DNA from: Actinacidiphila yanglinensis
GTDB lineage: Bacteria; Actinomycetota; Actinomycetes; Streptomycetales; Streptomycetaceae
NCBI RefSeq assembly: GCF_900107965.1
Contig: NZ_FNVU01000025.1
Location: 62,001 to 126,000, forward strand
Reading direction: 5' to 3'
DNA: 64,000 nt
Below, one piece after another: positions 32,985 to 50,779 of the stretch. The position numbers and the translations under genes were made by a program. Each line of letters starts with the position of its first letter. Positions within the stretch are counted from its first letter, which is position 1. The notes beneath the pieces were generated by a model. That model did no database searches, had not been told where the DNA came from, and was given only the letters and a program-made list of their open reading frames with translations.

Positions 32985-33015
32985 GCGGCGGCCCGCGTGT
33001 GACCCGGGCCGCCGC
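32985..33015. terminator. Terminator between convergent genes
   Basis: A perfect 11-bp stem (GCGGCGGCCCG 32985-32995 with 33005-33015) lies between the hydrolase gene and the convergent hypothetical gene. Confidence 0.65.
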
Positions 33016-33050
33016 AGGCTTCCCCCGGGCCGGCCGTAAGGCGCCGGGCG

Positions 33051-33629
33051 TCACGCCTTCAGGGCGCTGAGCGGGAATCCGGTGCGCGCGTCGACGGCGT
33101 AGGCCGACCAGTCGTCGACCGGACGGACGCGGAACCGGGCCGGATCGAGCTGCACGGCCACGACGAAGACGACGACATCGCCGAGCCGCTGGTAGCCCAT
33201 CGAGAACCCGTCCGCCGTGGCGGTCTCGGCGCGATCCTCTTCCGTACCCGGTCCGCTTCCGGACCCGGCGATCCCCGTCCCGGTTCGCGTCCAGAGAGCC
33301 TCGGAGTTCGCGAGCGCGTCGATGGCCTGGTGGGTGGCGAGCGGTCCCCGCGGCCGTGCGGCCAGGGGAAGCGCGTCACCGCCGAGGGCCAGGTGAGCCG
33401 CCCGGAACCTCGCCTCCGCTCGGTCGTAGCGGCGACCCGACGTGCACACGATCACGACGGAGCCGGCCGCCGCCCACCCGAGATGCACCTCCTCCGCGGG
33501 CGCACCGATCAGCCCGTCCCAGTGGCTGAACCACCGCCGGGCGGCCGCACCCCCGCCTGCCGCGACGTCGCCGTCGTCGAACTCGTGGAGACCGAACTCC
33601 GCCGGAACGAAGCGTTGTTCCTCGACCAT
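33051..33629 (-). CDS. Hypothetical protein
   Basis: The protein has 192 residues from ATG 33629 with a GGGGGAA box. No family is recognised. Patterns are mixed: WFSHWDGLIGAPAEEVHLGW, VVIVCTSGRRYDRAEARFRA, and a C-terminal VVVFVVAVQLDPARFRVRP strand region. No export signal or catalytic motif was found. It is divergent from the ECF sigma gene, with about 185 bases between them. Confidence 0.55.
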   Translation of the reverse strand: MVEEQRFVPAEFGLHEFDDGDVAAGGGAAARRWFSHWDGLIGAPAEEVHLGWAAAGSVVIVCTSGRRYDRAEARFRAAHLALGGDALPLAARPRGPLATHQAIDALANSEALWTRTGTGIAGSGSGPGTEEDRAETATADGFSMGYQRLGDVVVFVVAVQLDPARFRVRPVDDWSAYAVDARTGFPLSALKA

Positions 33630-33814
33630 GGTTCCCCCTGTCGTTCCCCCGAGGCTACTGAACTCGTCGGCGGGTGGCGGATGTTGCCCGACGGTCCCGG
33701 CGGACCGCGTCGTCAACGGGGAATGGAACTCGATGCGGTCGAGCGGCGAAGGATGGGTGAACCACCCGAACAAGCCCAAGCCTTCGAGGCGTTCAGACGA
33801 CGGAAGGAGCCCCG

Positions 33815-34438
33815 ATGGCCGTCGAGTCCCCGGGCGTCAGTGCCCGCGAGGAGAATCGCGAGGACGACGACGCCCGCGTGATCGCGCGGTCCCGGGATGA
33901 GCCCGAGCAGTTCGCCGCGCTGTTCGACCGGTACGCCGACGCCGTGCACCGTTACGTGGCCCGGCGGATCGGTCCCGAGACGGCGGAGGATCTGGTGGCC
34001 GAGACGTTCATGACCGCGTTCCAGCGACGCCACACCTACGACCCCCTGCGTGCGGACGCCCGCCCGTGGCTGTTCGGCATCGCGACCAACCTCATGAGCC
34101 GGCACCGCAGAGCCGAAGCACGCCGTTTCAAGGCGCTCGCGAAGGTTCCGGAGCCGGTGGAGGACGAGGAGCCGGTCGCGGACCGCGCGGTCGCCAGGGT
34201 CGGCGCCACGGGGGTGCGCCGGGAGCTGTCCGCGGCCCTGGCCAAGCTGTCCGCCCGGCACCGGGACGTCGTCCTGCTGGTGGCGTGGGGCGACCTCGGC
34301 TACGAGGAAGTGGCCCAGGCGCTCGGGGTACCGGTCGGCACCGTCAGATCTCGGCTGAACCGGGCTCGCAGCAGGTTACGCGAAGCATTGGGCGGGTCCG
34401 ATCCGACAGCTTTCCGGGAGGAAGACGCCCATGCGTGA
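33815..34438 (+). CDS. ECF sigma factor with TTA codon, paired with CU044_5270-type protein
   Basis: The protein has 207 residues. Region 2: FAALFDRYADAVHRYVARRIG and EDLVAETFMTAFQRRHTY, then RPWLFGIATNLMSRHRR. Region 4: LSARHRDVVLLVAWGDLGYEE and VPVGTVRSRLNRARSRLREAL. It overlaps the next gene by 8 bases. That partner plays the membrane anti-sigma role in this ECF group, as inferred from recurring gene pairing. A TTA leucine codon at 34376-34378 near the 3' end makes the sigma factor a bldA-dependent candidate. Confidence 0.9.
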   Translation: MAVESPGVSAREENREDDDARVIARSRDEPEQFAALFDRYADAVHRYVARRIGPETAEDLVAETFMTAFQRRHTYDPLRADARPWLFGIATNLMSRHRRAEARRFKALAKVPEPVEDEEPVADRAVARVGATGVRRELSAALAKLSARHRDVVLLVAWGDLGYEEVAQALGVPVGTVRSRLNRARSRLREALGGSDPTAFREEDAHA

Positions 34439-35447
34439 CATCGACGAACTGGAAGAACTGCGGGAGTACGACGCGGGGGCTCCCCCGCTCGACAACGCCA
34501 CCCGGGGACGGATGCGGGCACGGCTGCTCACCGCGATGGACCCCGAGAACGCCGCCGCCCCGGCGCCGGCCGTCCGCCATCGCCGCCCCGTCCTGCGCAT
34601 CGCCCTGACCGTCATGGTCGCCGCCGCGGTCGCCGGCAGTGTCCTGGTCGCCGTGCACGACGACGGCCGCGCCAAGGGGGGGACGGCGGCACCGTCGTCG
34701 ACCGGTTCCCCGGCCCTGCGGAACGTCAGCGCGCAGGTGGTGCTCGACGGCGCGGCCACCTACGCCCGGCAGCACGAGCAGCCGGCCAGCCCGAGGAACG
34801 ACCAGTTCATCTACACCAAGGAGATCATCAAGGAGACCAACCAGCGGACCGGCGCCACCAGGACCTACACCGACGAGAACTGGCGGTCGGTGGACAACTC
34901 GAAGCCCTCCTGGGTCATGGAGATCGGCAAGGGCTGGTGGTCGCCTCCGCCGCCGAAGAACGAGACCGTGTGGCCCCCGGAGGACTGGGCAACGCTGAAG
35001 AAGCTTCCGACCGATCCCACGCAACTGATCCTTTGGCTCGTCGAGGGACCCAACGGCAAGGACCACTCCCTCAGCCGGCTCAACAACATCGACTGGTCGC
35101 TGGCCCACTTCGAGCTTTCCGGGCTGCTCAAGCTGGTCCCGGTGATGCCCGCGGGGCTGCGCCCGGCGGCGTACGAGGCGCTCGGCATGTTCCCCGGGGT
35201 GAAGGTGGTGCCGAACCAGAAGGACGCCAAGGGCCGTACCGGCGTGGCCGTCACCTACGACGACCCGACGCGTCCGAAGGGGTCGACGGGCTTCGGCGGC
35301 TACTTCATCTTCAACCCGAAGACCTACGAGTTCCTCGGCTTTCGTGACCAGAGCACCTCGGGCAGCGGAAAGAACAGGAAGACGTACACCCAGCTCTCCT
35401 CCCTCGACACCTGGGCCGTCGTCGACAAGGTCAAGGAGCGGCCGTAG
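34431..35447 (+). CDS. CU044_5270 family membrane-anchored protein (putative anti-sigma partner)
   Basis: The protein has 338 residues. The N-terminal cytoplasmic part (about 50 residues, EELREYDAGAPPL) is followed by one membrane segment (VLRIALTVMVAAAVAGSVLV) and a large extracytoplasmic domain with conserved YTKEI, WWSPPPP and FNPKTYEFLGFR elements. The family name comes from its consistent pairing with ECF sigma factors. The overlap with the sigma gene supports co-translation. The external domain would sense an unknown envelope signal. Confidence 0.85.
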   Translation: MRDIDELEELREYDAGAPPLDNATRGRMRARLLTAMDPENAAAPAPAVRHRRPVLRIALTVMVAAAVAGSVLVAVHDDGRAKGGTAAPSSTGSPALRNVSAQVVLDGAATYARQHEQPASPRNDQFIYTKEIIKETNQRTGATRTYTDENWRSVDNSKPSWVMEIGKGWWSPPPPKNETVWPPEDWATLKKLPTDPTQLILWLVEGPNGKDHSLSRLNNIDWSLAHFELSGLLKLVPVMPAGLRPAAYEALGMFPGVKVVPNQKDAKGRTGVAVTYDDPTRPKGSTGFGGYFIFNPKTYEFLGFRDQSTSGSGKNRKTYTQLSSLDTWAVVDKVKERP

Positions 35448-35559
35448 CCGGGGATGGCCCCGGCGGTCCCCTGAGGGCGGCCCGGGCCGGAGGGTCCCGC
35501 GGCCGCCCTCGGCGTACTCGACCCCTCACGGGACGGACGGCGGCCCGTATGCTGCGATC

Positions 35560-36258
35560 ATGGATGACCCCGTACTCACCGCCCGCGAACTGGTGCGGGA
35601 CCGATTTCCCGCCGCCCGGGCGGTCTTCCTCGCCGGCAGCGTGCTGACCGGCCGCCGGACGCCCACCTCCGATCTGGACATCGTGGTCGTCATGGACGGG
35701 CCGCCCGCCCCCTGCCGGGAGAACCTGGTGTACCGGGGCTGGCCGGTGGAGCTGTTCGTGCAGACGGAGGCCGTGTGGCACGGCTTCGCCGACGAGGAGA
35801 CCGCGAAGCGGAACTCGCCGTTGCTCGCCATGTGCGCCGACGGCATGCTCCTGGTCGACGCGGACGGGCTCGGCGCCGCGCTCCAGGACGAGGCGCGCCG
35901 GCGGCTGGCCGCGGGTCCGGCGCCGTTCTCGGATCCCGAGCGCGACTACCAGCGGTACATCCTGACCGACCTGCTCGACGACCTCCGCGGCTGCACCGAC
36001 CCTGCCGAGCGGACGTACCTGGTCGCGTACACGCTGCAGCGCGCATCGGAGCTGGTCCTCCTGCTCGGCGGGCACTGGCTCGGCGCGGGCAAGTGGCTGT
36101 CCCGGCGCCTGGCCGACGCCGCCCCCGAGGTGCACCACGCGTTGTCCGAGGCGGCCGCGGAGGCGATCGCCGGGGACACGAAGCGCTTCGCCGAGGTCGT
36201 GACAGGCGTACTGGACCTGGCCGGCGGCCCGCTGTGGGACGGGTACGCGGTCCGATGA
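35560..36258 (+). CDS. Nucleotidyltransferase-domain protein (aminoglycoside adenylyltransferase/MNT-like)
   Basis: The protein has 232 residues from ATG 35560. The polymerase-beta nucleotidyltransferase motif is intact: AGSVLTGRRTPTSDLDIVVV, i.e. GS followed by DxD. The C-terminal helical region (TYLVAYTLQRASELVLLLGG) resembles HEPN/substrate-binding helices. It could transfer a nucleotide to a small molecule or a protein. No antitoxin-type partner is adjacent, so a housekeeping or resistance-like role is as likely as a toxin role. Confidence 0.8.
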   Translation: MDDPVLTARELVRDRFPAARAVFLAGSVLTGRRTPTSDLDIVVVMDGPPAPCRENLVYRGWPVELFVQTEAVWHGFADEETAKRNSPLLAMCADGMLLVDADGLGAALQDEARRRLAAGPAPFSDPERDYQRYILTDLLDDLRGCTDPAERTYLVAYTLQRASELVLLLGGHWLGAGKWLSRRLADAAPEVHHALSEAAAEAIAGDTKRFAEVVTGVLDLAGGPLWDGYAVR

Positions 36259-36386
36259 GTCGGTAAGGGCGATCACACTGACCGACGCCGAAAGGGCCAG
36301 GCACGAACCGTGTTCCAGCTACCTGCCTCCGCGCCTGACCTCCTGAACGCGGGGCCCGGTCCACATTCATCCACCACGTCGACGGA

Positions 36387-36821
36387 CTACTGATACCAGT
36401 CGTCGCTGCCGTCGGCCAGTGAACGGCCCAGGTAGTCCGTCAGGTCCCCCGCCACCCAGCGGCGGCTGTCGGTCTCGTGCTCCCAGACGAAGATGTCCGG
36501 CCGCTGGGGTGTCTGCACGAAGGCGAACTGGTCCCCGCCTCCGTTGTCCCCGAAGAAGAGCAGAGCATCGAACGGCATGTACAGCTGGGCGAAGGAGCTG
36601 TCCGTGCGGAAGAGCAGGTTCTGCTCCACGATCTGCTCGACCGGCCAGACGGTGTCCACCGCGGAGTGCCCGATCATGCCGTCGCACTCCAGGAGCAGCT
36701 GCCTCAGAGCGCCAGGCAGCTCACGTCCGAGACGGTGCTCCGCGTCAGCGAGGGCCGCCATATGTGCGGGGCTCCGCAACTCTGTCCCAGGAAAGGCTTC
36801 GAGAGCCGCTTCTCGCCACAT
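36387..36821 (-). CDS. SUKH (SMI1/KNR4) superfamily protein
   Basis: The protein has 144 residues. The pattern fits SMI1/KNR4 (SUKH-1): LADAEHRLGRELPGALRQLL, then the LLECDG turn, FFGDNGGGDQFAF with the conserved GDNGGGD core, and a C-terminal DLTDYLGRSLADG helix. These proteins are typical immunity proteins of contact-dependent or polymorphic toxins, and also occur as orphans. No toxin gene lies nearby. A barstar-family gene follows upstream on the same strand, 166 bases away. Confidence 0.85.
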   Translation of the reverse strand: MWREAALEAFPGTELRSPAHMAALADAEHRLGRELPGALRQLLLECDGMIGHSAVDTVWPVEQIVEQNLLFRTDSSFAQLYMPFDALLFFGDNGGGDQFAFVQTPQRPDIFVWEHETDSRRWVAGDLTDYLGRSLADGSDDWYQ

Positions 36822-36987
36822 GGCCCGAAGGGTACTGATTACCCGGGTGACGGTGGGGTCGTGGGGTAACAGAGCACTCCGGCGAGGGGGTCGCCGGACT
36901 GTCGCGCGGGCCGCCGGACGACCATCCCGTGCTCCTCCTCCCACCGTCCGGCGCCAGGGAATCGGCGAACGGGACCGGCCTCATCAT

Positions 36988-37725
36988 TCAGTTCCCCGCA
37001 CCTTCACCGCGCAAGAATGCAGAGCGGGACCGGACGATGTCCAGTCCCTCGTGGATCGAGCAACCGAGTTGGTCCCGGAACGACTTGATGGCCGTGAGGG
37101 TCATACCGCTGCGGATCTCCTCGTCCGCGAAGGACAGCGGGCCGGCCGTCCAGGGGGCGGACGCGGGATCTCCACCGGGCCAGTCGACATCGGTCAGGGT
37201 GACGAGCAGGCGGCCGTCCGAGAGCGCCACCGCCACGTCCCTACCGCGGGCCGCCTTCTCCGTGAAGGCAACGGGTGCGGTCCGGTCCAGGAGGAAGAGG
37301 AAGTGCTGGGCGAAACGCTGGCGCCCCTCATGGGGTTCTCCGTCGGCGTCCAGGCGCAGGTTGGAGTTCCAGGCCGCCTGGGCGAGAACCGACACGAACA
37401 GCCCGAGGAAGTCCGACGTCAGCAGGTCGTCCGCGTGCTCGATCAGGATCGCGAGATCCTGGTCCCCGTGGCCGGGACCGTGCCAGTCGTGGAGGCAGTC
37501 CACGAGCGCGTCCCAGTTGTGGCCGAAGCAACCGAGGAACGAGAGCTCCCGGGCGAAGGTGCGGAAGACGGATGCCGGATCCCGCATCTCCCGGCCGTCC
37601 AGTCGCAGGACCAGACCGTTCCGCTGCACGAGCGCGGCCGTTTCCGACGCCAGCCATGGGTCCGACGAGGAGGTGAACACGACCCACGGGGAACGGCGTT
37701 CCGTCAGAGCGGGCACGGTCGTCAT
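36988..37725 (-). CDS. Barstar-family protein with C-terminal extension
   Basis: The protein has 245 residues. The barstar core is seen in the middle: LDGREMRDPASVFRTFARE, then GCFGHNWDALVDCLHDWHG, which carries the conserved GxNWDAL element that inhibits barnase-type ribonucleases. It is longer than barstar (about 90 residues). The C-terminal 35 residues (TAIKSFRDQLGCSIHEGLD) resemble the ribosomal L7/L12 C-terminal helix pattern. No ribonuclease gene is adjacent. With the SUKH gene it forms a pair of orphan immunity-family genes. Confidence 0.8.
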   Translation of the reverse strand: MTTVPALTERRSPWVVFTSSSDPWLASETAALVQRNGLVLRLDGREMRDPASVFRTFARELSFLGCFGHNWDALVDCLHDWHGPGHGDQDLAILIEHADDLLTSDFLGLFVSVLAQAAWNSNLRLDADGEPHEGRQRFAQHFLFLLDRTAPVAFTEKAARGRDVAVALSDGRLLVTLTDVDWPGGDPASAPWTAGPLSFADEEIRSGMTLTAIKSFRDQLGCSIHEGLDIVRSRSAFLRGEGAGN

Positions 37726-37846
37726 GGGCGAGATCCTCGCACGGCACGGGCTCGGAGCCGGAGCGATTGACGGAGGTCGATCGTGCTCGGCGGACGACGC
37801 CCGCCCGGGGCAAGGAGGTTGGGGTCGCTCGCGCCGGCGCCCCGGC

Positions 37847-38071
37847 CTATGGGGAAGGTCGGCTGCCGGTCAGGAGGGTGCGGACGTAGACGGTGTGGGC
37901 GTGGAGGAGTGTGACGGTGCGCTCGGTTCCGCCCGGCAGGAACGGCAGGGTGAGCAGGGCGGGGACCATCGCAAGCAGGGACAGCAGGACGGCCGGGGCG
38001 AGCAGGGCGACCAGGAGCACGCGCTGGAGGGCGCCGGCGGTGCGGGGCGAAGGCAGCGGAAGAAGGGTCAT
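37847..38071 (-). CDS. Small membrane protein
   Basis: The protein has 74 residues with one long hydrophobic hairpin (LLVALLAPAVLLSLLAMVPALLTL in two halves) and basic ends. No family or strong ribosome site is seen, and support comes from codon bias and position only. It is divergent from the DnaJ-like gene. Confidence 0.4.
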   Translation of the reverse strand: MTLLPLPSPRTAGALQRVLLVALLAPAVLLSLLAMVPALLTLPFLPGGTERTVTLLHAHTVYVRTLLTGSRPSP

Positions 38072-38287
38072 GTCGGCAAGTACAGGCCCTGGAGGATCCG
38101 TTCACCCAGCGTGAGGAACGGACTCGGTGAACCTCCGCCGACTGCGAACGATCCGGTACGGGAGCCGGTGTTCCGCGCGGGCCGGACATGGAACCGCGGG
38201 GTGTTCCGGATCGTTCCGTCAAGTCCAACACCGCTCCGCGCGCTGCCCTTTAGCCTGAGGCCATGCATCGCCGGCGGGGGGAAGGAC

Positions 38288-39889
38288 ATGGGTGACAGCG
38301 CCAGCCCGGACAGCGGCGAGCCGCACGTCCAGGAGAGCTTCGCCCGGGAACTGTCGCTGTTCGCAAAGCAGTTGCGTGATCTGCGGCTGGATCGGGGGAA
38401 CCCGTCGCTGCGGGACATCGCGCGCCGTGCCGAACAGGTCCAGGTCCTGCGGCCGTTGCCGCTCGGAACGCTCAGCGACGTCTTCAACGGGAAACGGCTG
38501 CCCCGCCTGGAACTGCTGCTCACCCTGGTCCGCACCCTGCTGGCCTTCGACGAGGACGGCCGGCCGTGCCAGGCCCTCACCCCCCGGTCGGCGGAGCTCG
38601 ACGTCTGGCGCAGCCGCTGGCGCGCGCTCGAGGCGCTGCGCACCGCAGCCCGGGTGGCGTCCCCACCGCCCGATCCGCCCGCGCCGGACCTGTCGGGCGC
38701 CGACGCCACCCCGCATGTGCCAGACACGGATGCCACCCCGACCGATCCCGCGGCATCCGACGCGCAGGACGCCGCATCCCTGTTGCATGCCGCTCGTACG
38801 GAGGCGGCGGGCATCAGGGAGGTGGCCGGCGCCCGGGCCGACCAGCTCATCGCCGAAGCCCAGGCCGAAAGGGATCAGGCCGCCACCGAACTGGCGCGGC
38901 TCCGCGGCAGGGTGGCCGAGGAACTGGCCACCGCCCGGGAGGAGGCGCAGCGGGAACGGGAGCGGGCCGTCGCCGACGCGGCACGCATCCGCGAGCAGGC
39001 GCGGGCACAGGCCGCGGCACCCGGCAGCGGTCCGGACGACCAGGCGGGCGCCGAGGACGTCGAGTCCTCTCCGGGGCCGCGGGACCGGTCCGGCGACGAC
39101 GTCGTGATCCCCCTGGAAATCGCGCTCGAAGAAGCCGCTTTCGGCGTCACCAAGGACGTCGAGGTGGACACCGCGGTCGCCTGCGACAGGTGCGGGAGCC
39201 AGGTCCCCCCGGCGCGGAAGTGCGACGTGTGCCGCGGCCGCGGCGAGGTCTCCGGGATCACCCGATCCCTCCTCGGTCAGGTCATGGAATCGCGGACCTG
39301 CGCGCGATGCCGTGGCCTCGGCACGGTGCTGCCCGAGCCGTGCCCGCAGTGCGCCGGCGAGGGGCGGGTGCGCTCGCGCCGCACCCGGACCGTCCGGCTT
39401 CCCGCCGGTATCGACAGCGGTACCCGGATCCAACTGGTCGGCGAGGGCGCGGCCGGGGCCGGCGGCGGCCCGCCCGGCAACGTGTACCTGGAGATCCACG
39501 TGCGGCCGCACGAGATCTTCGAGCGCCGCGGCGACGACCTGCACTGCACCATCACCATCCCGATGACCGCGGCCGCGCTCGGCACCATGATCCCGCTGGA
39601 GACGCTCGACGGCGCGGCGGAGGTGGCCATCCGGCCAGGCACCCAGTACGGCCGGACCATCCCCTTCCCCGAACGGGGCGTCACCCACCTCAACGGCGAC
39701 GGCCGCGGCGACCTCGTCGTCCATGTCGAGGTCACCGTCGCGGCCGGGCTCGACTCCGTCCAGGAGGACCTGCTGCGCCGACTCGCCAGAGCCCGCGGCG
39801 AGGAGCACCCGACCGGTGAATTGACCCCCGGGGCGCAGGGGTTCTTCTCCCGGCTGAAGGACGCCTTCAACGGCCACCAGCCCATGTGA
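38288..39889 (+). CDS. J-domain-less DnaJ-type chaperone fused to an HTH-like N-terminus and coiled coil
   Basis: The protein has 533 residues from ATG 38288 (GGGGGGAAGG box). Residues about 15-120 form an HTH-like module common at the start of Streptomyces multidomain signalling proteins (LRDIARRAEQVQVL, GTLSDVFNGKRLPRLELLL). Residues 155-260 are a long charged coiled coil (AEAQAERDQAATELARLRG). From about 285 it is a DnaJ C-terminal part: zinc-binding CxxC pairs at 299/302, 312/315, 338/341 and 352/355, then beta-domains with GGPPGNVYLEIHV and PGTQYGRTIPFP. The HPD-bearing J domain is absent, so it should bind clients but not stimulate DnaK in the usual way. Confidence 0.82.
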   Translation: MGDSASPDSGEPHVQESFARELSLFAKQLRDLRLDRGNPSLRDIARRAEQVQVLRPLPLGTLSDVFNGKRLPRLELLLTLVRTLLAFDEDGRPCQALTPRSAELDVWRSRWRALEALRTAARVASPPPDPPAPDLSGADATPHVPDTDATPTDPAASDAQDAASLLHAARTEAAGIREVAGARADQLIAEAQAERDQAATELARLRGRVAEELATAREEAQRERERAVADAARIREQARAQAAAPGSGPDDQAGAEDVESSPGPRDRSGDDVVIPLEIALEEAAFGVTKDVEVDTAVACDRCGSQVPPARKCDVCRGRGEVSGITRSLLGQVMESRTCARCRGLGTVLPEPCPQCAGEGRVRSRRTRTVRLPAGIDSGTRIQLVGEGAAGAGGGPPGNVYLEIHVRPHEIFERRGDDLHCTITIPMTAAALGTMIPLETLDGAAEVAIRPGTQYGRTIPFPERGVTHLNGDGRGDLVVHVEVTVAAGLDSVQEDLLRRLARARGEEHPTGELTPGAQGFFSRLKDAFNGHQPM

Positions 39890-40193
39890 GCGTCTGCGGC
39901 CGGGGCGCTGCCGTCCCGTCACGGTCGCATGCGGCGCGACGTCTCGGCAGGTCAGCCGGCGGGACGTCCCGTAATCCCCTCAAGTCCTCGTCGCTGCTGG
40001 CCGATCGCTGGCGGTGACCGGCAGTCTCGATGGTGCACGACGGACGGCGCGGCCCACCCGGTGGGACGGTCCGTACCGGCCGGCGGCCGCGCCGGCCGGC
40101 AGGACCGGGAGCGTGCCGCGCCGGACCCCTCGACCATCGACGGGGTGCCGATCGGATCGGAGATCCGACCGGGCACCCGAGAGAGCGGGAACC
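39890..40193. other. Intergenic region with terminator and leader hairpin
   Basis: No gene is seen. A terminator hairpin lies at 40076-40099. A second dyad (GGTGCC near 40143 with GGCACC near 40171, plus an inner CGGATC/GATCCG pair) lies just upstream of the small secreted-protein start and may structure its leader. Confidence 0.5.
40076..40099 (+). terminator. Terminator hairpin after the DnaJ-like gene
   Basis: A perfect 10-bp stem (40076-40085 with 40090-40099, loop GCCG) made only of G-C pairs. Confidence 0.55.
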
Positions 40194-40580
40194 ATGACGA
40201 ACAGGAAGACGGCGGCGGCCCTGGCCGCAGCAGCGCTGACCCTCGTGCTCGGCGCCACGGTGCCGGCAGCGGCGGCGCAGGCGCCGGGAGTTGCCACGGC
40301 GGGCGTGTCGGCGGCGTCGCGGACGGGGACGTTCTACGGTACCTACCAGCACTCCGACGGATGCGTGTACCTGCGGTCCGCAGCCGGGTACCACTACCTG
40401 CTGGTGGGCTACACGATGGGCGGCAACGGCGGCCTGTACAAGAAGGGCGGCGGCTTCATCGCCTACCCGGGCTGGCGGATCGCCGCGCACGGCACCCAGT
40501 ACAACAAGTCCGGCACGACCGTGTGCACGACGTGGGGCGCCTACCGCCGCATCAAGGCGACGTCCATCCACTCCTACTGA
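40194..40580 (+). CDS. Small secreted protein
   Basis: The protein has 128 residues with a GGGA box before ATG 40194. The signal peptide ends near AAAAQA (residue 29). The mature part of about 90 residues is Gly/Tyr-rich (GTYQHSDGCVYLRSAAGYH, YTMGGNGGLYKKGGG) with two Cys that could pair. No catalytic motif or named family is recognised. It is transcribed alone and convergent with the RpiR gene. Confidence 0.75.
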   Translation: MTNRKTAAALAAAALTLVLGATVPAAAAQAPGVATAGVSAASRTGTFYGTYQHSDGCVYLRSAAGYHYLLVGYTMGGNGGLYKKGGGFIAYPGWRIAAHGTQYNKSGTTVCTTWGAYRRIKATSIHSY

Positions 40581-40694
40581 GCCGGCGCCGGTGAGGGGGT
40601 GGGCCCCTCCCCCAGTGTGACGGTCCCGCAGCCCCGCTCCTCCCCTCGCGGATCTTCCGCCGCGCACGCGTGCGCCGGCGCGGCCTTCCGCTCG

Positions 40695-41591
40695 TCAGGG
40701 GGTGGGCGGGGGCTGCTTGTAGGGGCGGACGGCCTCCGCGGTGGCGGCCATCGCCTCGGTGGACTGGTCGTAGGTGCGCTGGGCGACCGCGACGTACAGC
40801 AGGTCGAGGACGGCCATCTGGGCATGCCGGCTGAGGATGCTCGCGTGGCCGGGGGCGTCGGTGGGGACCGCGGTGGTGAGGAGCAGGTCGACGCGGCGGG
40901 CGAGGGGTGAGCGGGGGTCGTTGGTGAGGGCGATGGTGGTGGCGCCGCGGGCGGCCGCCTCCGCGGCCAGGTCGGTGACCTCGCGGGTGGTCCCGCTGTG
41001 GGAGATGGCGAGCATGACGTCCAGCGGGCCGAGCAGCGCGGCGCCGGTGAGGGAGACCTGGGTGTCGCTCCACGACCAGGCGGGGACGCCGATCCGGAAG
41101 ATGCGGTGCTGGAACTCGGTACCCATCCCGGCGCTGCCGCCCGTGCCGCAGATCTCCACCCGCCGGGCGCCGGCGATCGCCGAGGCGGCCCGCTCCACGG
41201 CGGGCAGGTCGAGCCGGTCGAGGGTCTCACCGACCGAGTGGCGGACCGCGGCGGAGATCGCGCCGGCGACCTGGGCGAGGCCGTCGTTCTCGGAGATCTG
41301 CCGCCCGATGTTCTCCTGCCACGTCTCGCGCCCGGTGCGGCCGCTGTCCGAGGCGAGCGCGATGCGCAGCGCCGCGTAGCCGGGCAGGCCGAGCGACCGG
41401 CAGAAGCGGGTGATGCTCCCGGTGGACACCCCGCACGCCTCGGCGAGGTCGAGGATGGTCATCCGGGCGACGGAGGCGGGATCGTCGAGGATCAGCGCGG
41501 CGGTCGCGCGCTGCGCTTCGGGCAGTTCGGGCATGAGCCCGCGGATGCGCTCGACGACTCCGTCGTCGGTGGCATCGAAAGCTGTACGCAT
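40695..41591 (-). CDS. RpiR/MurR-family regulator with SIS domain
   Basis: The protein has 298 residues with a GGAGGA box before ATG 41591. The N-terminal RpiR HTH spans about 15-90 (MTILDLAEACGVSTGSITR, then FCRSLGLPGYAALR). The C-terminal SIS phosphosugar-binding domain has GTGGSAGMGTEFQHR and AISHSGTTREV. Such regulators sense sugar phosphates, often amino-sugar phosphates. It is divergent from the GH20-GH29 operon, with two related palindromes between them, so it is the likely regulator of that operon and of itself. Confidence 0.9.
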   Translation of the reverse strand: MRTAFDATDDGVVERIRGLMPELPEAQRATAALILDDPASVARMTILDLAEACGVSTGSITRFCRSLGLPGYAALRIALASDSGRTGRETWQENIGRQISENDGLAQVAGAISAAVRHSVGETLDRLDLPAVERAASAIAGARRVEICGTGGSAGMGTEFQHRIFRIGVPAWSWSDTQVSLTGAALLGPLDVMLAISHSGTTREVTDLAAEAAARGATTIALTNDPRSPLARRVDLLLTTAVPTDAPGHASILSRHAQMAVLDLLYVAVAQRTYDQSTEAMAATAEAVRPYKQPPPTP

Positions 41592-41614
41592 GGGGGCGAT
41601 TCCTCCCGGACTGG

Positions 41615-41726
41615 CGGAGAATTATTCTCCGTTACCTCCTTTCGGCGTGTCAACGCCGCTGAACGACCCTTGACTTGGCTGGTGGCTCACCTGCAGAGTC
41701 CTTCGGCGGAGAATAATTTTTCTTCG
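41615..41726. promoter_or_regulatory. RpiR-type operator pair between the regulator and GH20 genes
   Basis: CGGAGAATTATTCTCCG at 41615-41631 is a perfect 17-base palindrome. A related box CGGAGAATAATTTTTCTTCG lies at 41707-41726, with 6 of 7 arm positions symmetric. Their AT-rich cores stand out from the GC-rich background. One box is next to each start codon, as expected for regulation of both directions. Confidence 0.75.
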
Positions 41727-41739
41727 ACGGGAGCATGTG

Positions 41740-43797
41740 ATGACATCGTTGGACGAGGATCGCCCCGGCGGCACGAGGCGAACCGCACCACCGCCGGCGT
41801 GGCGGCGACACGCCGCCGCCGTTCTGAGGAGACCCTCGGCAGGGGCCGCCGCGGTCTGCCTGGGGCTGACCGCGGCACTGCTGGCCGGCGCGGGCACGGG
41901 TACCGCCTCGGCCGGCACCGCGCCGGCCACCGCCACCGCGGCAGCGGACTCCGCGACGCCCGCGCTGATCCCGGCGCTGGACAACTGGAAGGCGGCGGAC
42001 GGCTCGCTGCGGCTGGGCCCCACCTCGCGGATCGACACCGACGCGGCGAACCGCGCGACGGCGGTCACCCTCGCCGCCGACCTGCGGGACGCACACGGCT
42101 GGCGGCTGCCCGTGGTGGGCGGACCCGCCCGGCCCGGCGACATCGTGCTGCGCACCGACGCGAAGCGCACCGACCTGGGGGCGGAGGGGTACGAGCTCGG
42201 TGTCGGCGCCGAGGCGAGCGTCACCGGCCGCACCGGCGACGGCGTGTTCTACGGCACCCGCACCATCCTCCAACTGCTGGCGACCAGCGCGGCGTTGCCG
42301 CACGGCAGCACCACCGACGTGCCCGCCGCACGGGAGCGCGCGGTCGGCGTGTGCGCCTGCTACACGTACAACACCGACGCCTGGTTCGACCGCCTCATCA
42401 AGGACATGGCGTACCTGAAACTCAACACGCTGCACCTGGAGTTGAAGGTCCGCAACGACGAGTACCCGGCCGTCAACACCTTCTCGTACTACACCAAACC
42501 GGAAGTGCGCGCGCTGGTGGCGCTCGCCGCGAAGTACCACATCACCGTCATCCCGGAGATCAACTCGCCGGGCCACGTGGACCCGTACATCACGCCGTAC
42601 CCGGATCTGCAGCTCACCAACGCCGACGGCGTGAAGGACCCGACCCGGCTGGACGTCACCAACCCGGCGTCGTTCACCTTCTACACGCACCTGATCGACA
42701 ACGACCTGAGCGTGTTCCCCGGGCCGTACTTCCACATGGGCGCGGACGAGTACATGGTCAACTCCGCCTACGGCAACTTCCCGCAACTGCTCACCTACGC
42801 GCGGCAGAAGTTCGGGCCGAACGCCACGGCGCAGGACGCGTACATCGACTTCGTCAACCGGGTGGACGCCTACGTCCGTTCCAAGGGCCGCACGCTGCGC
42901 ATCTGGAACGACGGCCTGACCGGTGACAACACCGTCCCGCTCAACAAGGACATCGTCATCGAGCACTGGCTGCCGGAGAAGGTCACCACGCAGCAACTGC
43001 TGGACGACGGCTACCAGGTGATGAACGCCACCGACGCCTGGTACTACGTCAGGGGCGGCTACCAGCCCGACGCCGAGCGGCTGTACGACGCGGACTGGTC
43101 GCCGCTGGACTTCGCGGACCAGACCGTCACCGACACCGGCTCCCGCGTGACCGGCGCCGAGTACATGGTCTGGCCGGACAACTACGGCAAGGAGAACGAG
43201 AACGCCGTCCAGAACGGCATGTTCACCTCGCTGCGCGCCTTCGCCCAGGGCGTGTGGGGCAGCCCCCGGCCCACCGCCGACTACACCGGCTTCACCGCGC
43301 TCGCCAATGCGCTGGGCCACGCGCCCGGTTGGGGTCCGCAGTGGGTCCAGCCGCTGCCGGAGGGCAGCTACCGGCTGAGCGACTCGGGTGGCGCGCTGTC
43401 CGCTCCGGCCTCCTCCACGGGCGCGGCTCCCGCACCCGGAACCGCGCTGATCACCGGCCACAGCGCGGGCACCTGGCACCTGGTGCCCACCTCCGACGGC
43501 TACTACCAGCTCGTCGACACCGACGGCGGGCTGTGCGCCGACATGAGCCGCGGCACGACGAACAACATGCACGTGGTGGAGCAGGCGGATGCCGGCGCGA
43601 CCGCGGAGAGCTGCGTGGCGAGCTCCGAGAGCCAGAAGTGGCAGCTGGAACCCGTGCCCGGCGGCTACCGCGTGGTCAACGCCATCACCCAGCTCACGCT
43701 GCAGTCGCCGCGTGCCTGGGGCCCGGTCGTCCAGGAGCCGCGCGACATCGCGACCGGCGACGTGTGGCGGTTCACCGCGGTGAAGGGGCAGTCATGA
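41740..43797 (+). CDS. Secreted GH20 hexosaminidase/lacto-N-biosidase-like enzyme with ricin-type lectin domain
   Basis: The protein has 685 residues from ATG 41740 (GGGAG box; GTG 41737 is also possible). A long N-terminus with a late hydrophobic core and AGTGTASAG cleavage region exports it. An N-terminal GH20b-like domain is followed by the GH20 barrel with FHMGADEY at 331-338; Asp336 and Glu337 are the catalytic pair for substrate-assisted cleavage of N-acetylhexosamine glycosides. Residues about 545-680 form a ricin-B-like lectin. Its stop overlaps the GH29 start as ATGA. Coupling to a fucosidase suggests fucosylated lacto- or mucin-type glycans; plain chitobiase activity is the alternative. 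Confidence 0.87.
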   Translation: MTSLDEDRPGGTRRTAPPPAWRRHAAAVLRRPSAGAAAVCLGLTAALLAGAGTGTASAGTAPATATAAADSATPALIPALDNWKAADGSLRLGPTSRIDTDAANRATAVTLAADLRDAHGWRLPVVGGPARPGDIVLRTDAKRTDLGAEGYELGVGAEASVTGRTGDGVFYGTRTILQLLATSAALPHGSTTDVPAARERAVGVCACYTYNTDAWFDRLIKDMAYLKLNTLHLELKVRNDEYPAVNTFSYYTKPEVRALVALAAKYHITVIPEINSPGHVDPYITPYPDLQLTNADGVKDPTRLDVTNPASFTFYTHLIDNDLSVFPGPYFHMGADEYMVNSAYGNFPQLLTYARQKFGPNATAQDAYIDFVNRVDAYVRSKGRTLRIWNDGLTGDNTVPLNKDIVIEHWLPEKVTTQQLLDDGYQVMNATDAWYYVRGGYQPDAERLYDADWSPLDFADQTVTDTGSRVTGAEYMVWPDNYGKENENAVQNGMFTSLRAFAQGVWGSPRPTADYTGFTALANALGHAPGWGPQWVQPLPEGSYRLSDSGGALSAPASSTGAAPAPGTALITGHSAGTWHLVPTSDGYYQLVDTDGGLCADMSRGTTNNMHVVEQADAGATAESCVASSESQKWQLEPVPGGYRVVNAITQLTLQSPRAWGPVVQEPRDIATGDVWRFTAVKGQS

Positions 43798-45719
43798 TCA
43801 GCCGCAGGGACGTACTGCGCGGCGGGACCGCCGCGACCGCGGCCGTCGCGGCGGCCGGCCTCACCGCCGGCCGGGCGGGCGCCGCGCCCGCACCGGGATC
43901 CGCGCCCGCACCGGAATCGGCACCCGCCGCCGCCTCGACCGTCACCTCGGGGGGCACGGGAGCGATCCGGCCCGCACCGATCATCGCCGTCGACCCGGCC
44001 GACACGCCGCAACGCATCGTCGCCAAGGCCGCCGCCGTCGTACCGCGGCCACCGCAAGTGAGCTGGCAGCAGCGGGAGGTGACGGGGTTCACCCACTTCG
44101 GGATGAACACCTTCACCGACCGCGAGTGGGGCTCGGGCTGCGAGGACGAGGTGACCTTCGCCCCGACCGCCGTCGACATCGACCAGTGGATGGACGCCTA
44201 CCGGGCGGCCGGCATGAAGCAGGTCATGCTCACCGCCAAGCACCACGACGGGTTCGTGGTCTACCCCACCCGCTACACCAACCACAGCGTGATCGCGAGC
44301 CCGTGGTGGTACCGCGACGGCGGCCCGGACGCCACCGCCCGCGCCGCACGGGCCACCGCCACCGCTCAACGGGGCGACGACTACGCGGCGTTCTGGCGGA
44401 TCCGCGGAGAGGGCAACGTCAATCCGGCGGGCGACATCCTGGGCACCTACCTGGCGGCCGCCCGCAAGGCCGGCCTGAAGGTCGGCGTCTACCTCTCCCC
44501 CGCCGACGGCGCGGAACTCCCGCACGCCTGGCACGAGACCTTCGTGGCCGGGATCGTCGCCAAGCACGACGCCGGCGGTCAGCTGGACACCGAGGAGCAG
44601 TCGACGTACGACGACCGCGACCGGGCCCCGTCGGGTATGGGGCGCTACGGCAGCGGCAGCGCGGTCACCGCGCGGACCGTCCCCACCCTGGTCGAGGGCG
44701 ACGACCGGGCCGAAGCGCTCGCCGCCGGCCGGCTGCCCCGCTTCCAGGTCATGGCGGACGACTACAACGCCTACTACCTCAACCAGCTCTACGAGCTGTT
44801 CACGCAGTACGGCCCCATCGACGAGCTGTGGCTCGACGGCGCCAACCCCTGGACGTCCAGCGGGATCACCGAGACGTACGACTTCACCACCTGGTTCGCG
44901 CTGATCCGCGCGCTCTCCCCGGACACCGTCACCTTCGCCGGGCCGCAGGGCACGCGGTGGGTCGGCAACGAGGCGGGGCAGGCGCGGTTGACGGAGTGGA
45001 GCGTCACCCCGGCGACCGCCGACCCCGCCACGGCACACGGCGAGGGGCTGCTGCCGAACGGGGCGCAGGCGGAGGACATCGGCTCGGACGCGGCGATCAC
45101 CGCGCCCGGGGTGAAGTTCCTCCAGTGGTTCCCGGCCGAGGCGGACGTGTCGATCCGGCCCGGCTGGTTCTGGCACGCGTCCGAACAGCCCAAGACCGCC
45201 GAGCAGTTGACGGAGCTGTACCGCACGTCCGTGGGGCGCAACGCCGTACTGCTGCTCAACGTGCCGCCCAGCACCGGCGGCCGGGTCGACGACGCGGATG
45301 TCGCCGCGCTGACGGGCTTCGGACGCGCCGTCGCCGCGACCTACGGCCGCAACCTGCTCGCCGGGGCCCGACCCGGCTCGCTGGCACGGACGTTGACCGA
45401 CGGCCGGCTGGAGACCGCGTGGTCGCCGTCGGGCGGCGCGGCGACCGGCTCCTTCGAACTGCGCCTGCCGAAGGGCCTGTCCTTCGACCAGGTGCGGCTC
45501 GGCGAGGACATCCGGCGCGGGCAGCACGTCGAGGAGTTCACGGTGGACGTCTGGGACGGGACGGCCTGGACCACCATCGCCGAGGGCACCACCATCGGCT
45601 ACTCCCGGATCCTCGCGGTGCCCGCGCAGAGCGCCGCCCGGTCCCTGCGGATCACCGTCGGCCGCGCCCGGGCCACCCCGCGCCTGGCGATGCTGGGGCT
45701 GTACCGCACGCCCGCGTAA
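43794..45719 (+). CDS. Tat-exported GH29 alpha-L-fucosidase with C-terminal F5/8C-like domain
   Basis: The protein has 641 residues. The N-terminus ISRRDVLRGG is a twin-arginine signal, followed by a Pro/Ala-rich linker. The GH29 barrel shows FTHFGMNTFTDREWG, the KHHDGF motif (MLTAKHHDGFVVYPT), and ELWLDGANPW with nucleophile Asp348. The C-terminal 130 residues are a beta-sandwich carbohydrate-binding module. The barrel is of the plant-like GH29 type that favours alpha-1,3/4-linked fucose, as an inference from the WLDG context. The start overlaps the GH20 stop, so both are made in step. Folding before export fits a metal- or disulfide-independent enzyme. Confidence 0.87.
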   Translation: MISRRDVLRGGTAATAAVAAAGLTAGRAGAAPAPGSAPAPESAPAAASTVTSGGTGAIRPAPIIAVDPADTPQRIVAKAAAVVPRPPQVSWQQREVTGFTHFGMNTFTDREWGSGCEDEVTFAPTAVDIDQWMDAYRAAGMKQVMLTAKHHDGFVVYPTRYTNHSVIASPWWYRDGGPDATARAARATATAQRGDDYAAFWRIRGEGNVNPAGDILGTYLAAARKAGLKVGVYLSPADGAELPHAWHETFVAGIVAKHDAGGQLDTEEQSTYDDRDRAPSGMGRYGSGSAVTARTVPTLVEGDDRAEALAAGRLPRFQVMADDYNAYYLNQLYELFTQYGPIDELWLDGANPWTSSGITETYDFTTWFALIRALSPDTVTFAGPQGTRWVGNEAGQARLTEWSVTPATADPATAHGEGLLPNGAQAEDIGSDAAITAPGVKFLQWFPAEADVSIRPGWFWHASEQPKTAEQLTELYRTSVGRNAVLLLNVPPSTGGRVDDADVAALTGFGRAVAATYGRNLLAGARPGSLARTLTDGRLETAWSPSGGAATGSFELRLPKGLSFDQVRLGEDIRRGQHVEEFTVDVWDGTAWTTIAEGTTIGYSRILAVPAQSAARSLRITVGRARATPRLAMLGLYRTPA

Positions 45720-50673: not shown

Positions 50674-50779
50674 TCGTTCCTCTGCCCTTTCAGCCACACT
50701 TCGGCGGGCGGCCGGGTTTCATGGGCGCCGCCGCCTCGGATGACAGGTACGAACAACATCGAACGTTTCTCAACGAAAC
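50658..50779. promoter_or_regulatory. LacI-type operators at the GH97 start
   Basis: GACAACGTTGTC at 50658-50669 is a perfect 12-base palindrome covering codons 2-5. GTTTC-N5-GAAAC at 50765-50779 is a second dyad in the promoter zone. Both have the CG-centred or GAAAC-type look of LacI-family sites in Streptomyces glycosidase genes. No LacI gene is present in the window. Confidence 0.6.

Follow-up and report, generated by a model that had tools for sequence, protein, structure and literature searches.

HspR carries an HTH of the MerR-like type, WhiJ-type loci are an example of HTH/DUF397 pairs, and NB-ARC domains belong to the STAND NTPases. In Streptomyces and mycobacteria HspR works with DnaK as its co-repressor, as described in passages of two papers (PMC8223512; PMC2687793). 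The HTH/DUF397 pairs of actinobacteria are compact mobile units that combine an HTH protein with a second, small protein, and the conflict systems of multicellular bacteria use STAND NTPases and superstructure-forming repeats as parts and exchange sensory and effector halves around constant parts, both according to passages of PMC7159879.

Our analysis covered a window of 64,000 nucleotides of Actinacidiphila yanglinensis, in which a gene at 38288..39889 (+) encodes a fusion protein of 533 aa composed of an XRE-type HTH, a coiled coil and a J-less DnaJ2. With actinobacterial DnaJ2, a class A J-domain protein (NF010871/PRK14278), the fusion shares the zinc centre, both C-terminal domains and the tail, whereas HTH and coiled coil stand in place of the J domain and the G/F region. 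Like HspR with DnaK, as far as the cited passages describe them, it would couple a DNA-binding protein to the client-binding ability of a chaperone, but in one chain, with an XRE HTH and with no HAIR-like site in the 64-kb window (0 matches to the HAIR consensus, up to 3 mismatches allowed). The cassette to which the gene belongs resembles the HTH/DUF397 pairs of PMC7159879, as its passages present them, in that it too is small, mobile and made up of an HTH gene and the gene of a small protein; it differs in that the partner is a transmembrane (TM) protein without Pfam match and in that the HTH bears WD40, DnaJ, TPR or other halves. Conflict proteins and cassette both exchange halves around a constant part; in the cassette this part is an HTH for DNA binding together with an operator-like array, an architecture that the same passages do not mention. 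The XRE regulators ClgR, BldD, C.AhdI and HigA have the HTH fold and repeats in the own promoter in common with it, whereas the cassette has 10-bp direct repeats, a large exchangeable C-terminal half and a divergent small TM partner. Among the listed titles and abstract openings of the PMC literature (most subscription papers lie outside it) no J-less DnaJ-HTH fusion and no such cassette was described. The parts are of known kinds; as far as these searches reach, neither their combination nor the cassette seems to have been described.

The fusion protein

The reading frame extends from an ATG at 38288 to the stop codon at 39887-39889, and a purine-rich ribosome-binding site, GGGGGGAAGGA, can be read directly upstream (38276..38286, +). 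The N-terminal module (N-module; residues 11-124, 38318..38659, +) was modelled by AlphaFold from a 12-row alignment as five helices with an XRE-like fold (pLDDT 85), and its neighbours in Foldseek and VIA are mostly XRE/lambda-repressor proteins (ClgR, C.AhdI, HigA, BldD, DdrO). Foldseek assigned a probability of 0.99 to ClgR, 5woq and C.AhdI, the latter with an rmsd of 1.5 over 66 columns, yet no E-value below 0.097, and VIA gave a majority of XRE-like proteins among 50 rows with a best Z of 8.1, a value that helical bundles can reach by chance. Such modest E-values and Z scores are expected of small helical domains, and unrelated proteins (MPnS, bromodomains, POU proteins) also occur among the neighbours. 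In agreement with the fold search, Pfam at E<=1 weakly matches HTH_31 in 7/28 and HTH_3 in 4/28 members of the module; the HTH match of the window protein itself (HTH_3, E 0.042) lies below the cut-off.

The N-module is followed by a predicted helix of 90 residues forming the coiled coil (residues 154-243, 38747..39016, +; pLDDT 91-96 over most of it) and by DnaJ_C (residues 273-484, 39104..39739, +; Pfam E 2.7e-41), which comprises CTD I, the zinc centre and CTD II and aligns to the solved DnaJ 6jzb with E 7.2e-42. Four CxxC pairs with 8/8 Cys make up the zinc centre (residues 299-359, 39182..39364, +; Pfam DnaJ_CXXCXGXG E 4.9e-10, and alignment), although its first repeat is a few residues shorter and without its GxG. 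The C-terminal tail GFFSRLKDAFNG (residues 518-529, 39839..39874, +) resembles by alignment the DnaJ2 tail. Of 78 positions without variation in an alignment of six DnaJ2 and two DnaJ1 rows, the protein retains 66. The full-length AlphaFold model, built on a shallow alignment, is of low confidence over its DnaJ part and was kept out of the fold search.

Pfam found no J domain (PF00226) at E<=1, the HPD tripeptide is absent from the whole sequence, and no G/F region lies between coil and DnaJ_C. Since the NCBIfam actinobacterial DnaJ model aligns from model position 99 on only (E 3.6e-100), both the J domain and the G/F region are missing. A hidden J domain can be ruled out on these grounds, the more so as the four other fusions described below likewise have no PF00226 match at E<=0.5. 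From the missing J domain it follows that the protein would be unable to call DnaK alone. Thus, the domain reading of the first-pass annotation, an HTH-like N-terminus, a long coiled coil and the zinc Cys pairs with both beta-domains of DnaJ but no J domain, agrees with fold models, Pfam and NCBIfam.

Elsewhere in its genome the organism has an ordinary DnaJ2, a DnaJ1 and a CbpA-like protein (L002, L003 and L005), and the DnaJ part of the fusion is 66-68% identical to this resident DnaJ2 (66% over residues 258-530). A caspase-like protein of the same genome (L004/L082, G000:C15) also carries a J-less DnaJ_C, as does one of a second genome with a J-less DnaJ C-terminal half (L074, G001:C10); 2/8 zinc Cys align in the former and 8/8 in the latter. 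The caspase-like motifs were judged by eye, Pfam giving only weak CHAT and C13 matches on the G000 copy. A known defence system was considered and rejected: the sole PADLOC match of the fusion protein, PDC-M01B (E 0.00047), covers the zinc finger region.

A divergent cassette with exchangeable C-terminal halves

The fusion gene is one half of a divergent two-gene cassette, whose other half, recognised from its ORF and homologues, encodes a small membrane protein of 74 aa, type C (37847..38071, -). Pfam finds no match for this protein at E<=1, and therefore no DUF397, and PADLOC matches it to no model; one representative of each TM type (A, B and C) has no Pfam match below E 0.17. A Barstar-family protein of 245 aa (36988-37725, -) adjoins the cassette.

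The N-module has matches in 41 or more of 394 genomes searched in the family (E<=1e-6) and, at E<=1e-8, in 6 of 70 genomes from one genus and in 29 or more of 392 from a second, the genome sets partly overlapping; the counts of 41 and 29 are lower bounds, as part of the candidates was scored. The loci form 76 rows (41 + 28 + 7) and 73 distinct loci, L100, L102 and L107 of set two being the same as L048, L052 and L055 of set one. Set one (41 loci) is free of the repeats L001, L006-L010 and L013 and of the related-locus copies L045, L047, L049 and L053. Set two (28 loci) is free of L092, L098 and L111, already in set one, and of L094, L095 and L124, which together with four plasmid loci make up a third batch of 7. 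The N-module tree, the WD40 count and the promoter pair-density count refer to 69 rows with three loci counted twice; L041 was left out of A1.

Divergent to the N-module gene, a TM gene is present in 57/73 distinct loci, or 49/65 after dereplication at 85% identity. Set one has it in 33/41 loci (A 17, B 8, C 8), set two, by profiles from set one, in 22/28 rows (A 9, B 11, C 2) or 19/25 without the set-one duplicates, and the third batch in 5/7. On the same strand no match was found in the 35 loci tested. The gene is missing in 16/73 loci, including one DnaJ fusion (G208). With "none" as a state, the TM type changes 9 times on the N-module tree against 30 times when shuffled, and thus follows this tree; nine of the 69 rows are absent from it, L011, L012, L014, L041, L056 and L093 as distant and L101, L115 and L117 as short. 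Types B and C each occur with DnaJ and with WD40 partners. In L060-L062 a type C TM gene lies divergent to different HTH-coiled-coil genes with GTTGTCC-like motifs between, so this TM family is also paired with regulators of other kinds.

The distribution of the architecture, to which the first-pass annotation had pointed, amounts to five J-less DnaJ fusions among the 73 distinct loci: the window, a complete fusion in a second Actinacidiphila species (G006/L045), and three in other Streptomycetaceae (G192/L022, G208/L021 and L126). The last lies on plasmid NZ_CP108159.1 of Streptomyces sp. NBC_00161 and is annotated as WP_331718872.1 with a start too late; in this public annotation the start falls inside the HTH module and the divergent TM gene is shortened. 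With five fusions, the second Actinacidiphila species included, an assembly artefact is ruled out. The zinc centre is not strictly retained among them, since L126 has two CxxC motifs only and G192 7/8 Cys. The DnaJ2 tail SRLKDAFNG is present in 3/4 chromosomal fusions and lost in G208, and the plasmid fusion has a different C-terminal end.

WD40 is the commonest C-terminal partner of the N-module (35/69 rows; on the tree these labels stem from a letter pattern, not from Pfam). Further partners are NB-ARC, TPR with TPR-S, coiled coils and, at two loci, a carboxyltransferase. These two (L097, L104) join the N-module to an acyl-CoA carboxylase carboxyltransferase with a type B TM gene divergent; in L104 this enzyme part shares 75% identity with a resident carboxyltransferase. 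By eye, L032, L054, L055 and L103 carry a TIR-like/deoxyribosyltransferase-like domain, and the three scanned with Pfam (L032, L055, L103) have TPR-S sensor repeats in addition. In PADLOC, L017 matches HEAT-ARM_XIII (E 2.1e-22), and the match of L055 is a TIR effector model (weak, E 9.3e-5). At L052 (= L102), a type C cassette, the N-module frame stops early, apparently marking a broken copy. The HTH keeps its promoter and TM gene while the C-terminal half varies, mostly WD40, otherwise J-less DnaJ2, TPR or carboxyltransferase. The first-pass annotation had the domains of the fusion right and missed both its divergent TM partner and the recurrence of the HTH with WD40, TPR, NB-ARC and carboxyltransferase.

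Aligned by blastn, window positions 33001-45000 match L045 only at 37863-38643 and 38763-39873, which limits the homology to the two genes and their intergenic region; the Barstar gene lies outside this common block. Between the two Actinacidiphila copies dN / dS are 0.174 / 0.657 for the HTH, 0.384 / 0.790 for the coil, 0.286 / 0.572 for the DnaJ part and 0.138 / 0.436 for the TM gene, so that all three fusion parts and the TM gene are under purifying selection (dN/dS below 1). Cassettes are found on plasmids too. No tRNA, and hence no sign of tRNA-linked integration near the gene, was found within 33000-45000.

In a tree of DnaJ parts the Actinacidiphila fusions group with Actinacidiphila DnaJ2 (100/100) and G192 and G208 fall outside. 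Holding the DnaJ parts of the four fusions together is rejected (p-AU 5.5e-5, to be read with caution given the long branches), whereas one clade of the N-modules of the four chromosomal fusions is not (AU p 0.065). End branches are much longer in the fusions (0.05-0.52) than in DnaJ2 (0-0.011). The rejection of a single origin (AU p 5e-5) suggests that DnaJ was probably captured at least twice. Separate captures are also suggested by the TM type, which is C in the window and in G006 but B in G192. A possible alternative is one fusion event followed by gene conversion from the resident dnaJ2.

The promoter repeat array

Between the divergent genes lies an operator-like array of 10-bp direct repeats (38203..38236, +), with GTTCC at 38203, GTTCC at 38213, GTCCA at 38223 and GCTCC at 38233. 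Directly downstream follows a putative -10-like TAGCCT (38251..38256, +), read directly from the sequence; a similarly placed CTCTAGCCTG is seen in many homologous promoters.

For set one, 32 of the 41 loci entered the promoter count, and 14 of these 32 dereplicated loci have GTTC pairs at 10 bp against 0.2±0.5 in dinucleotide shuffles; 12 have pairs at 20 bp, 8 at 30 bp and one each at 9 and 11 bp. Set two has them at 10 bp and at 20 bp in 9/28 loci each (base shuffles 0.1), all nine of the 10-bp cases being among its 25 independent loci, and the third batch has 10-bp pairs in 6/7 loci. When all loci are dereplicated at 85% identity (n=65), 29 have pairs at 10 bp and 27 at 20 bp, compared to two loci each at 9 and 11 bp. 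Counting three loci twice, the promoters (17.9 kb) contain 66 pairs at 10 bp and the remaining 233.7 kb only 7, and the density on both strands is 3.70 per kb in promoters against 0.030 outside. With three loci again counted twice, a GTTC/GAAC pair at 10, 20 or 30 bp is present in 43/69 loci and absent from 26/69; with the three spacings each one base shorter the count is 4/69, and with each one base longer 22/69.

The triple-repeat pattern has six exact matches in its own genome, one of them the window promoter, against one match in a backward-read control. None of the other five stands in front of an N-module gene, and control therefore looks local. A genome-wide regulon of this operator finds no support in this search with one exact pattern, five of whose six matches have no N-module gene behind them. 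A further GTTC array, its repeats 10 bp apart and with a single mismatch to the pattern, lies at 50741-50774 (-).

Rival readings and the proposed switch

Starting from the architecture, the cassette, the repeat array and the exchange of C-terminal halves demonstrated here, we propose an autoregulator that uses a captured client-binding half of DnaJ2 as sensor and controls its own gene and the TM gene, a reading to which we give roughly an even chance. Its best-supported step, by promoter array and XRE fold, is local autoregulation, which is likely judging from the sequence. The XRE HTH would bind the 10-bp GTTC repeats between the divergent genes and regulate, presumably repress, its own gene and that of the small membrane protein. 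The sensory domain would be the DnaJ half, a J-less copy captured from the resident DnaJ2, and the signal may be unfolded protein or another DnaJ2 ligand bound by this half. Ligand binding could shift the oligomeric state through the coiled coil and the DnaJ dimer region, and the changed oligomer would leave the operator or be rearranged on it. The fusion would thereby be a single-chain counterpart of HspR with DnaK as co-repressor. That a DNA-binding head and a client-holding half are joined in one protein suggests that the chaperone piece may act as sensor, as do the swapping of C-terminal halves behind an unchanging head and promoter, the largely retained client-binding half and the HspR/DnaK precedent. 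Recurrent capture and the restriction of the L045 homology to the two-gene unit also speak for the switch. The TM protein as output effector is a guess.

Several observations speak against this switch. XRE repressors usually bind palindromes, and a direct-repeat array on the same face is unusual for one. Repeat pairs are lacking in 26/69 loci and the TM gene in 16/73, the zinc centre is incomplete in L126 and G192, and the fusions evolve fast. At two loci the position of the DnaJ half is taken by a carboxyltransferase, from which sensing of unfolded protein would hardly be expected, and capture may therefore have a different rationale.

An alternative is an integrated decoy, in which copies of housekeeping proteins that phages or antibiotics attack (DnaJ2, an acyl-CoA carboxylase carboxyltransferase) would serve as bait, and interference with them would free the HTH and turn on a TM effector. 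The high identity of the DnaJ part and of the L104 carboxyltransferase to their resident counterparts would fit bait, as would DnaJ parts of four fusions without common origin, the PADLOC matches of L017 and L055 and the occurrence on plasmids; the other C-terminal halves (WD40, NB-ARC, TPR-S) fit as well, STAND NTPases and repeats being known conflict-system parts in passages of PMC7159879. WD40, the commonest partner, is no obvious bait, however, and Pfam gives the TM types no match below E 0.17 and PADLOC the window's TM protein none; we consider this decoy unlikely. A wider version of the captured-target idea is favoured by the carboxyltransferase fusions: a transferable chassis of XRE head, 10-bp repeat promoter and TM gene would repeatedly capture housekeeping copies as bait or as ligand sensors, a one-component analogue of integrated decoys with TM output. 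We regard this, too, as unlikely.

It is quite unlikely that the fusion instead uses its conserved C-terminal region to form dimers with the resident DnaJ2 and so makes DnaJ2/DnaK the co-repressor at this promoter; the tail retained in three chromosomal fusions and the HspR/DnaK precedent in passages of PMC8223512 would suit such a bridge, whereas its loss in G208 and the different end of the plasmid fusion do not. The first-pass annotation had thought of a DNA-associated chaperone. The association with DNA gains strong sequence support from the repeat array in the protein's own promoter, whereas a chaperone acting on DNA is less likely than a transcription switch with a chaperone-derived sensor. 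A holdase tethered to DNA, protecting bound clients with regulation as an incidental matter, would explain HTH and client-binding half in a single chain, but HTH module, promoter array and TM gene also occur with non-chaperone partners and the five other exact pattern matches do not precede N-module genes, so that we consider it very unlikely. A functionless, decaying chimera would account for the fast evolution and the shortened first zinc repeat; given dN/dS below 1 in the three parts and the TM gene, the retained promoter and five fusions in several lineages, it is highly improbable.

If the proposed autoregulator with a DnaJ2-derived sensor is true, the substrate-binding half of a chaperone would provide a DNA-binding protein with its sensory domain, uniting the roles of HspR and DnaK in one chain. 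The small cassette with its clear candidate operator makes the proposal directly testable. On the same reading, the exchangeable C-terminal halves would make up a set of naturally occurring sensors inside the cell, whose output would be a class of small membrane proteins.
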